Source of the DNA: Thermotoga profunda AZM34c06 | GTDB taxonomy: Bacteria > Thermotogota > Thermotogae > Thermotogales > DSM-5069 | DNA: 64,000 bases | Reading direction: 5' to 3' | NCBI RefSeq assembly: GCF_000828675.1 | Contig: NZ_AP014510.1 | Location: 1,569,413-1,633,412, forward strand | Part shown: in pieces, positions 39,528-41,485 of the stretch | Layout of the letters: each line of letters opens with the position of its first letter | Numbering within the stretch: the first letter of the stretch is position 1 | Notes under the pieces: generated by a model | The model's database searches: none | Told to the model about the DNA's origin: nothing | The model's input: only the letters and a program-made list of their open reading frames with translations | Translations under genes and position numbers: made by a program

Positions 39528-39556
39528 TTGACAGACAAGGAATCAAATGATAAACT
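39528..39556 (+). promoter_or_regulatory. Promoter of uraA
   Basis: A perfect TTGACA (39528-39533) is followed after 17 bases by TAAACT (39551-39556). Transcription should start near 39563, leaving a leader of about 44 bases. Confidence 0.75.
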
Positions 39557-39565
39557 TTTCAAGGG

Positions 39566-39600
39566 TCCTTTAATTTGCTCCTGAGAGGGCAGAAAGGAGG
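39566..39600 (+). promoter_or_regulatory. PyrR-like leader hairpin that can cover the uraA ribosome site
   Basis: TGCTC (39576-39580) pairs with GGGCA (39587-39591) around the hexaloop CTGAGA, giving TCCTGAGAGG, which fits the PyrR recognition pattern UCCNGNGAGG. TCCTTT (39566-39571) can pair with AAAGGA (39593-39598) outside this hairpin and so hide the AAAGGAGG ribosome site. UMP-bound PyrR would be expected to lock this fold and repress translation. Confidence 0.6.
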
Positions 39601-39606
39601 ATAAAG

Positions 39607-40818
39607 ATGGAAGCTCAAATTTCACTCGCTCAACAACGTGTGACTGGTTGGAAGTACTTTGTTCTGTCTTTTCAACATTTCGTAGCGATGTTTGGTGCGA
39701 CGGTTTTAGTCCCCTTACTCACTGGTCTTGATCCCCTTGTGGCTTTATTCACTGCAGGTGTTGGAACGCTTGTTTTTCATTCATTTACCGCAGGAGTTGT
39801 TCCGGTATTTCTTGGATCGAGTTTTGCCTTCATAGCACCTGTAATTATGGTCAAGGAGAAATTCAACGATCTTTCGTATGCTACTGGTGGTATTTTTGTG
39901 GCAGGACTTGTTTATTTACTGTTCGCATTAGCTGTATGGATGCTTGGGATTGAAAGAGTTAAGAAACTCTTCCCCCCTGTCGTCACAGGACCAATGATTA
40001 TTGTAATAGGTCTTACATTGAGTCCTGTTGCGATTCAAATGGCGAGTACCAACTGGCTGGTCGCGATCGTGGTTATTGTAACTGTTATAGTTGTATCGGT
40101 TTTTGTAAAAGGCTTTTGGAGTCTTGTACCAGTTCTCTCAGGAGTCTTTGTGGGCTATGTTTTTGCCCTGTTGACTGGACAAGTTGATACATCCACTTTG
40201 AGTCAAATTGGTTGGTTTAGCATTCCAAAGTTTGTTTCTCCCAAATTCGACTGGACAGCAATAGCGATGATCGCTCCCGTTTCAATAGCGACCTTCATGG
40301 AACATATAGGTGATATCACAACTAATGGTGCCGTAGTTGGCAAGAATTTCTTCGAATATCCGGGCTTGCATAGAACTTTGATAGGTGATGGGTTGGCAAC
40401 TTCCATAGCAGGACTACTTGGAGGACCGGCAAATACCACATATAGTGAGAACACAGGTGTCCTTGCACTTACACGTGTATATGATCCAAGAGTTTTAAGA
40501 GGTGCGGCAGTGATTGCGATAATCGTGGCATTTGTTTCGAAGTTTGGTGCATTGCTAAGAACTGTACCAAGTTGTGTCATTGGTGGAATAAGCCTGATAC
40601 TCTTTGGAATGATAGCCTCTGTCGGTATAAGAACACTTGTAAATGCAAGAGTTGATTTTTCTAAGGCAAAGAACCTTCTTGTGGCATCTTTGATACTAAC
40701 TATTGGGATCGGTGGAGCATCTTTGAAAATCGGCCCTGTTGAATTAAAAGGGTTAAGTTTGGCTGCAATAGTTGGTATAGTCGCGAATTTATTGATCGTG
40801 AACGAAAAAAAGAATTAA
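39607..40818 (+). CDS. uraA: Uracil permease (NCS2 family)
   Basis: The 403-residue membrane protein is an NCS2 nucleobase transporter with about 14 segments. It has QHFVAMFGATVLVPLLTGLDP near the start, PVVTGPMIIVIGLTLSPVA, and FMEHIGDITTNGAVVG with the substrate-binding Glu and the following GLATSIAGLLGGPANTTYSENTGVLALT. This pattern is that of UraA rather than of xanthine/urate permeases. The leader structure linking it to PyrR also supports uracil. A terminator follows at 40843. Confidence 0.93.
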   Translation: MEAQISLAQQRVTGWKYFVLSFQHFVAMFGATVLVPLLTGLDPLVALFTAGVGTLVFHSFTAGVVPVFLGSSFAFIAPVIMVKEKFNDLSYATGGIFVAGLVYLLFALAVWMLGIERVKKLFPPVVTGPMIIVIGLTLSPVAIQMASTNWLVAIVVIVTVIVVSVFVKGFWSLVPVLSGVFVGYVFALLTGQVDTSTLSQIGWFSIPKFVSPKFDWTAIAMIAPVSIATFMEHIGDITTNGAVVGKNFFEYPGLHRTLIGDGLATSIAGLLGGPANTTYSENTGVLALTRVYDPRVLRGAAVIAIIVAFVSKFGALLRTVPSCVIGGISLILFGMIASVGIRTLVNARVDFSKAKNLLVASLILTIGIGGASLKIGPVELKGLSLAAIVGIVANLLIVNEKKN

Positions 40819-40842: not shown

Positions 40843-40867
40843 AGGCGGCATGAAAGCCGCCTTTTTT
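40843..40867 (+). terminator. Intrinsic terminator after uraA
   Basis: GGCGGC, loop ATGAAA and GCCGCC are followed by six T residues. Confidence 0.9.
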
Positions 40868-40894: not shown

Positions 40895-41485
40895 TTGAAT
40901 ATAAAAAGAGTATTGATAAGCGCTTGGGACAAGACTGGCTTGATTGATTTTGCAAGAGAACTTTCAAAAAGAGGTGTATCAATAATCGCAACTCATGGCA
41001 CATGCAATTTTCTCAAAGAAAATGGTATAAGTGTTGGTAATGTGGAACAACTGACAGGTTACCATGAGTTGCTGAATGGAAGGGTGAAAACGCTTCACCC
41101 AAAGATCTTTGCAGCTGTACTTGCAAAACTTTCTAACAGAGAACATCTACAACAATTGTATGAACTCGGTATGCAGCCCATAGATATGGTTGTTGTGAAT
41201 TTGCGCCCTCTGGTGCAGACTTTTGATGAAAAAGAGTTACTCGAGTCAATAGATATAGGTGGGCTTGCATTGCTCAGGGCTGCAGCTAAAAATTACAGAG
41301 ACGTAGTACCTATATGTGATTATAACGATTATGCTTCTATTATTAAATCATTAGATGAATGTGGTGATATCGTCTTACAGCAGAGAAGAAAATTGTGTGC
41401 AAAAGCCTTTCTACTTTGCAGCGAATATGACCTGACCGTGTACAAGGCAATATGTGAACTTTTTGCCATTGATGTTGATTTGTGA
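40895..41485 (+). CDS. Stand-alone IMP cyclohydrolase (PurH N-terminal) domain protein
   Basis: The 196 residues align along their whole length with the MGS-like IMP cyclohydrolase half of PurH: VLISAWDKTGLIDFARELS, GRVKTLHPKI (62-71), PIDMVVVNLRPL, ESIDIGGLALLRAAAKNY. The second PurH half, AICAR transformylase, is absent, and nothing downstream encodes it. The usual NLYPF tyrosine, an active-site residue at position 104 of avian PurH, is arginine here (R104), while the Arg and Lys of GRVKT, the Asp of DIGG and the Lys of AAKN remain. It may be a working separate cyclohydrolase or a changed paralogue. The start is TTG at 40895 after GGAGAG; the ATG at 40850 lies in the terminator. Confidence 0.8.
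   Translation: MNIKRVLISAWDKTGLIDFARELSKRGVSIIATHGTCNFLKENGISVGNVEQLTGYHELLNGRVKTLHPKIFAAVLAKLSNREHLQQLYELGMQPIDMVVVNLRPLVQTFDEKELLESIDIGGLALLRAAAKNYRDVVPICDYNDYASIIKSLDECGDIVLQQRRKLCAKAFLLCSEYDLTVYKAICELFAIDVDL

Follow-up and report, generated by a model that had tools for sequence, protein, structure and literature searches.

In the window (the whole 64,000-nucleotide stretch of the Thermotoga profunda AZM34c06 genome analyzed here), we identified a hairpin at 39566-39598 that is very probably a PyrR binding loop, with a 3' arm that doubles as the Shine-Dalgarno sequence (SD) of the uracil permease gene uraA; binding of PyrR-UMP would repress translation. The element and its regulator are well supported, and from them we infer the binding, its ligand, and the translation-level repression of uraA by PyrR. 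When UMP is abundant, PyrR-UMP would bind and clamp the hairpin, keeping the 30S subunit off the SD and leaving the uracil permease unmade; when UMP drops, or when purine nucleotides compete for PyrR as described in Bacillus, the protein would leave and the SD would become accessible.

The uraA leader and its hairpin

The leader elements, for which the coordinates of the earlier note proved correct to the base, are arranged in the window as follows.

39528..39556, + strand: promoter-like site TTGACA-17-TAAACT (consensus scan, 10/12 match)
about 39563, + strand: predicted transcription start of uraA, from the promoter-like consensus match
39566..39598, + strand: probable PyrR binding loop with lower stem, 5' internal bulge, upper stem, and CNGNGA hexaloop (RF00515, model R2, covariation)
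39566..39571, + strand: 5' arm of the outer stem, UCCUUU, pairing with 39593-39598 or 39596-39601
39572..39574, + strand: 5' internal bulge AAU, at the bulge position of the RF00515 consensus structure
39575..39580, + strand: 5' strand of the upper stem, covarying with 39587-39592
39581..39586, + strand: hexaloop CUGAGA (CNGNGA), suiting the RF00515 loop positions
39587..39592, + strand: 3' strand of the upper stem, covarying with 39575-39580
39593..39598, + strand: 3' arm of the outer stem, AAAGGA, overlapping the SD (sequence; covariation in relatives)
39596..39600, + strand: uraA SD core GGAGG, six bases 5' of the ATG
39607..40818, + strand: uraA, NCS2 family uracil permease, 403 amino acids (uracil permease and NCS2 superfamily models, PF00860)
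40843..40862, + strand: intrinsic terminator 3' of uraA (terminator scan)

Translation of uraA starts at the ATG at 39607, and its product scored 382 bits against a uracil permease model (under the cut-off of 477) and 349 bits against the NCS2 superfamily model (over the cut-off of 291.8). Promoter-like 10/12 matches numbered two, compared to a mean of 3.7 in shuffles, and the 44-base leader is therefore a prediction only. The earlier note had described a leader of about 44 bases that is nearly all structure; the structural part stands, as the predicted leader (39563-39606) is nearly all one hairpin, and the length rests on the predicted start. Right after uraA lies a stand-alone N-terminal part of PurH (40895-41485), comprising the MGS domain and, of the AICARFT domain, only its first 57 positions; the remainder of PurH lies outside the open reading frame (ORF).

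The hexaloop CTGAGA (39581-39586) is contained in TCCTGAGAGG at 39579-39588, and the loop motif TCCNGNGAGG produced 11 matches in the genome, with a reversed control likewise producing 11. This chance-level count, for which we dropped the motif alone as evidence, is what would be expected if the resemblance were accidental, with an SD standing beside a complementary pyrimidine run and a loop that fits by coincidence. For the 47-nt leader, the folding energy is -15.8 kcal/mol, a value reached by 2 of 200 shuffles (z -2.58), and the fold of an 85-nt piece was unexceptional compared to shuffles (z -0.03). We then searched the 2.19-Mb genome (2,187,612 bases, one contig) with R2, a covariance model made from nine 35-nt loops (A3) of Actinobacteria, Thermoleophilia, and Firmicutes and containing no Thermotogota, and obtained a single match at E<=0.5, which fell in the uraA leader with 42.1 bits and E 1.8e-7. 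These nine loops were kept from a MAFFT alignment of 56 (A2) with gaps in the lower stem, and they came from a pattern devised after the Thermotogota leaders, so that their choice is not wholly independent. The whole-element match with R2 in our view rules out chance resemblance, to which we would assign a vanishingly small probability, and recurrence of the element 5' of orthologous uraA in 29 genomes also argues against it.

RF00515, which was curated independently and is free of the pattern choice behind R2, likewise matched the uraA leader and nowhere else in the genome at a threshold of E<=0.1 (32.2 bits, E 0.0127), with no match at E<=0.001. The score lies below the gathering cut-off of 54 bits for this 115-position model because the antiterminator/terminator half is missing. 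The first portion of the model, which covers the loop, the two stems, and the bulge, aligns well with the leader. The leader carries a CNGNGA hexaloop atop the upper stem and a CCUU/AAGG lower stem with a 5' internal bulge; alignment of the loop positions bears out the proposal in the earlier note that the hexaloop fits the PyrR recognition pattern CNGNGA. An antiterminator and intrinsic terminator are absent 3' of the loop and before the ATG, and we therefore file the element as a PyrR binding loop and not as a member of the full attenuator family, the terminator half of which does not fit. We also tried and rejected the L31-Firmicutes ribosomal protein leader (RF03156), which scored 14.6 bits versus a gathering cut-off of 33.3.

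Two outer pairings compete in this leader: CCUUU/AAAGG, which is the Rfam register, and CCUUU/GGAGG, which buries the SD core. Pairing of TCCTTT (39566-39571) with AAAGGA (39593-39598) had been proposed to mask the ribosome site; this holds, with the second, SD-burying register added, and either register is predicted to cover the SD at least partly. In isolated folding, the CCUUU/GGAGG register was favored at 37 °C and about equal to the Rfam register at 70 °C, and the probability of SD pairing without protein was 0.98 at 37 °C, 0.71 at 70 °C, and 0.57 at 80 °C. The group is thermophilic, and with the SD already 0.98 paired at 37 °C, PyrR would be needed mainly where growth is hot. The predicted fall in SD pairing over this temperature range would also suit a hairpin that acts without protein, whether as an RNA thermometer or as a constant brake on translation of uraA, although the CNGNGA loop would then have no role and the loop tracks pyrR among close UraA relatives (29/29 versus 0/11, described below). 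We consider this explanation very unlikely.

To follow the structure across relatives, we aligned 28 uraA leaders picked with the motif pattern (A1, 25 distinct rows), a selection by which conservation of the loop, the SD, and CTTT/AAGGAGG is partly by construction. Pairing in the upper stem was kept in all cells, with both-sides changes in 20 cells compared to 5.5 in shuffles. These changes occurred at three pairs, two of them with many such changes and the third with just one, and included both-sides changes at model columns 12-25 and 13-24; structures slid along A1 gave far lower scores. The outer stem in A1 exhibited one-sided changes or lost pairing only, with zero both-sides changes, and its outermost pair (column 1) was unpaired in 15 of the 25 distinct rows. 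In an alignment of the uraA leaders with relatives' purE and pyrC leaders (A4; 42 rows, 36 distinct), the outer stem changed from CCUU/AAGG to GGUU/AACC in pyrC leaders, a both-sides change that kept the Rfam register. This change was probably a single event, and lower-stem covariation in A4 is mostly one substitution pattern common to the pyrC leaders.

A terminator scan found no terminator-like site between the predicted uraA promoter and the ATG, in agreement with the earlier note, and the terminator-like sites within and 3' of uraA are far from the loop. Because the 3' arm of the loop is the SD (core 39596-39600) and no terminator precedes the ATG, translational repression is the simplest reading, as had been proposed, and the genome encodes a cognate PyrR through which it could act. 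A real PyrR loop could instead act mainly through mRNA stability or transcription, for example through Rho-dependent termination after a translation block, and translational repression often reduces mRNA secondarily. Such action would resemble that of Bacillus PyrR, which works by intrinsic termination (PMC7430163). The absence of a terminator-like site between loop and ATG, with others far away, and the overlap of loop and SD in A1 (where the selection itself included the SD) argue against this explanation, which we regard as unlikely.

PyrR and its co-occurrence with the loop

The earlier note had tied its reading to a pyrR homologue in the genome and to recurrence of the hexaloop and outer stem in relatives. 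Both were found: the window's genome contains one clear copy of PyrR (G000:C1:371749-372267, 231.5 bits versus a cut-off of 138), and in 29 of 40 genomes uraA is preceded by both hexaloop and outer stem. All 11 solved sequences that match this PyrR at E<=1e-20 are by name PyrR or ancestral or engineered PyrR. The pyrR gene lies outside the pyr operon, with tgt, priA, glmU, and prs as neighbors (names read from sequence).

A search for UraA in 103 genomes of the phylum returned matches in 76, and we defined a close-UraA set of 40 genomes at 57% identity or more, including the window's genome and one genome (G056) with a UraA that matches only in part, being truncated by a contig end. The loop is present 5' of uraA in 29 of these 40 genomes (11 of family f1, 15 of f2, and 3 of f10), all 29 of which carry pyrR, compared to none of the 11 genomes that lack the loop (eight of f3, together with G002, G035, and G037). 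Across the phylum, pyrR occurs in 42 of 103 genomes. Strong matches to model R1 (E<=2.7e-7), which contains the window's own uraA leader and is not an independent test of the window, were found in 31 of 103 genomes, 29 at uraA and two (G071 and G072) at purE only; these comprise 31 of the 42 genomes with pyrR versus 0 of the 61 without it. Co-occurrence of loop and pyrR follows the family tree, such that these counts represent non-independent events. Just 5' of the uraA leader in one relative (G076, L030:1-600), we observed CRISPR-like repeats with differing spacers.

Eleven pyrR genomes (G003, G004, G012-G017, G020, G022, and G054) had no strong R1 match, and a search of these with R2 returned one weak match only (G003, E 0.335). 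PyrR in these loop-less genomes may use a diverged site or act only as an enzyme. Two of them (G020 and G022) encode pyrR and a UraA whose main piece shows about 52-54% identity, outside the 57% cut. G054 encodes pyrR but, of UraA, only a C-terminal fragment cut off by a contig end, with the leader lying outside the sequence. A weak R2 match (E 0.0154) was also found in G089, a genome without pyrR.

Within the window's genome, the PyrR motif that the earlier note had suggested looking for before other pyr genes is absent there: R1 matched at uraA only, with a next best match of 16 bits (E 1.36). The gene pyrC and downstream pyrK, pyrD, pyrF, and pyrE (names read from sequence) lie at about G000:C1:2029.7-2033.5 kb, and the leader of this operon (L250:9452-9560, minus strand) contains a 43-codon ORF extending across a terminator, with no PyrR loop. 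A similar leader ORF through a terminator precedes pyrC in three of four relatives tried (G063, G064, and G057), and in the fourth (G065) the terminator was not found by the pattern used. As far as our models see, PyrR would serve uraA alone in this genome.

The hairpin before purE and pyrC in relatives

The leader-ORF wiring before purE and pyrC in relatives is a more interesting lead than the uraA loop. Tentatively, and with somewhat less than even confidence, we propose that PyrR is a translational repressor throughout the phylum and that the same hairpin has three different wirings, at uraA, purECSQ, and pyrC, with a block on leader-ORF translation leading to termination and with UMP gating the purine operon. 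In the first wiring, the hairpin would cover the SD of uraA itself; in the second, it would mask the SD of a short leader ORF reaching up to or into a terminator before purECSQ; and in the third, it would lie over the start codon of a longer leader ORF, one that crosses a terminator 5' of pyrC. In the second and third, PyrR would halt translation of the leader and the terminator would form, by which repression would become transcription termination.

We found the loop 5' of purE in six f2 genomes (L217-L221 and L234; G077, G080, G078, G079, G071, and G072), which places a pyrimidine sensor at a purine operon. The genes purE, purC, purS, and purQ were named by NCBIfam in L217 only, with purC under its cut-off. 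Four of the six purE loops exceed the RF00515 cut-off, at 61-64 bits. In these leaders a start codon lies 3' of the loop's AAGGAG, and a terminator follows at 85-122 bases from the loop start in five of six, with none found in L234. The leader ORF extends past the end of the terminator at three loci, stops within it at one, and stops just short of it at another; because the frame is open in 11-17% of shuffles (five stretches), these short ORFs remain putative.

Before pyrC, a loop with a GGUU/AACC lower stem lies at the start codon of a leader ORF in eight genomes (L222-L228 and L232; genera g5 and g6), with pyrC named by NCBIfam for one locus (L223). These ORFs are 68-97 codons in length, encode VNLVQRGQN or similar, and traverse the terminator in 8/8 cases, with the other two frames holding 2-9 stops; the frame was open in 0-3% of shuffles for seven loci and 19% for one. 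This arrangement suggests that PyrR may block translation of the pyrC leader, letting the terminator form. Coupling between PyrR and a leader peptide has reportedly been proposed for Thermus.

The uraA leader brings an established regulatory RNA, here pared down to its minimum, into a phylum of thermophiles and to a gene that is not part of the pyr operon, and the Rfam model under-scores such sites, which fall below its cut-off, as it includes the terminator. The three wirings would make a natural series in which an RNA-binding enzyme acts by ribosome block versus by ending transcription, and they raise the question of whether pyrimidine level gates purine synthesis.

Comparison with known PyrR systems

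Bacillus PyrR binds its loop when charged with UMP or UTP, with GTP and GMP as antagonists. It acts through intrinsic termination (PMC7430163). The earlier note's account of PyrR as best known for attenuation in Bacillus stands, with the amendment that translational repression by PyrR has already been published for Mycobacterium smegmatis (Fields and Switzer 2007, as cited in PMC13328217). Mechanism and target thus each have a precedent, and we did not meet their combination in this phylum in the literature searched. That search found no paper on PyrR sites in Thermotogota; the supplementary site lists of PMC3766115, which surveys 11 Thermotogales genomes and counts 211 pyrR sites over all lineages, lay outside it and may already include Thermotogales PyrR sites.

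In Streptococcus pneumoniae, a PyrR site lies 5' of uraA and uridine represses a reporter, such that regulator and kind of target are the same as here; however, the site is described as acting by transcription termination and not by SD masking (PMC6212727). The Firmicutes attenuators of RF00515 share the binding-loop part with the uraA leader, whereas their antiterminator/terminator half is absent here. In one Bacillales pyrR attenuator (Calidifontibacillus oryziterrae, L100:6705-6850), we observed an SD-like AAGGAGG and a 35-codon ORF over the terminator.

We scanned genome contigs with the pattern CCTTTAA-N5-8-CCNGNGAGG-N3-6-AAGGAGG and obtained at least 119 stretches, of which 80 were listed as loci. 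Among the matches listed, a PyrR-like ORF starts 3-15 bases 3' of AAGGAGG in 71 of the 80 loci, and the SD-overlapping loops before PyrR-like genes are mostly from Actinobacteria. The uraA element resembles these actinobacterial pyrR leaders in having the same hairpin, with CCUUUAA and AAGGAGG arms and the SD in the 3' arm, and is one to two bases shorter than most Actinobacteria loops among the matches listed. In contrast to the actinobacterial leaders, the target here is a uracil permease gene, located away from pyrR and the pyr operon and in another phylum.
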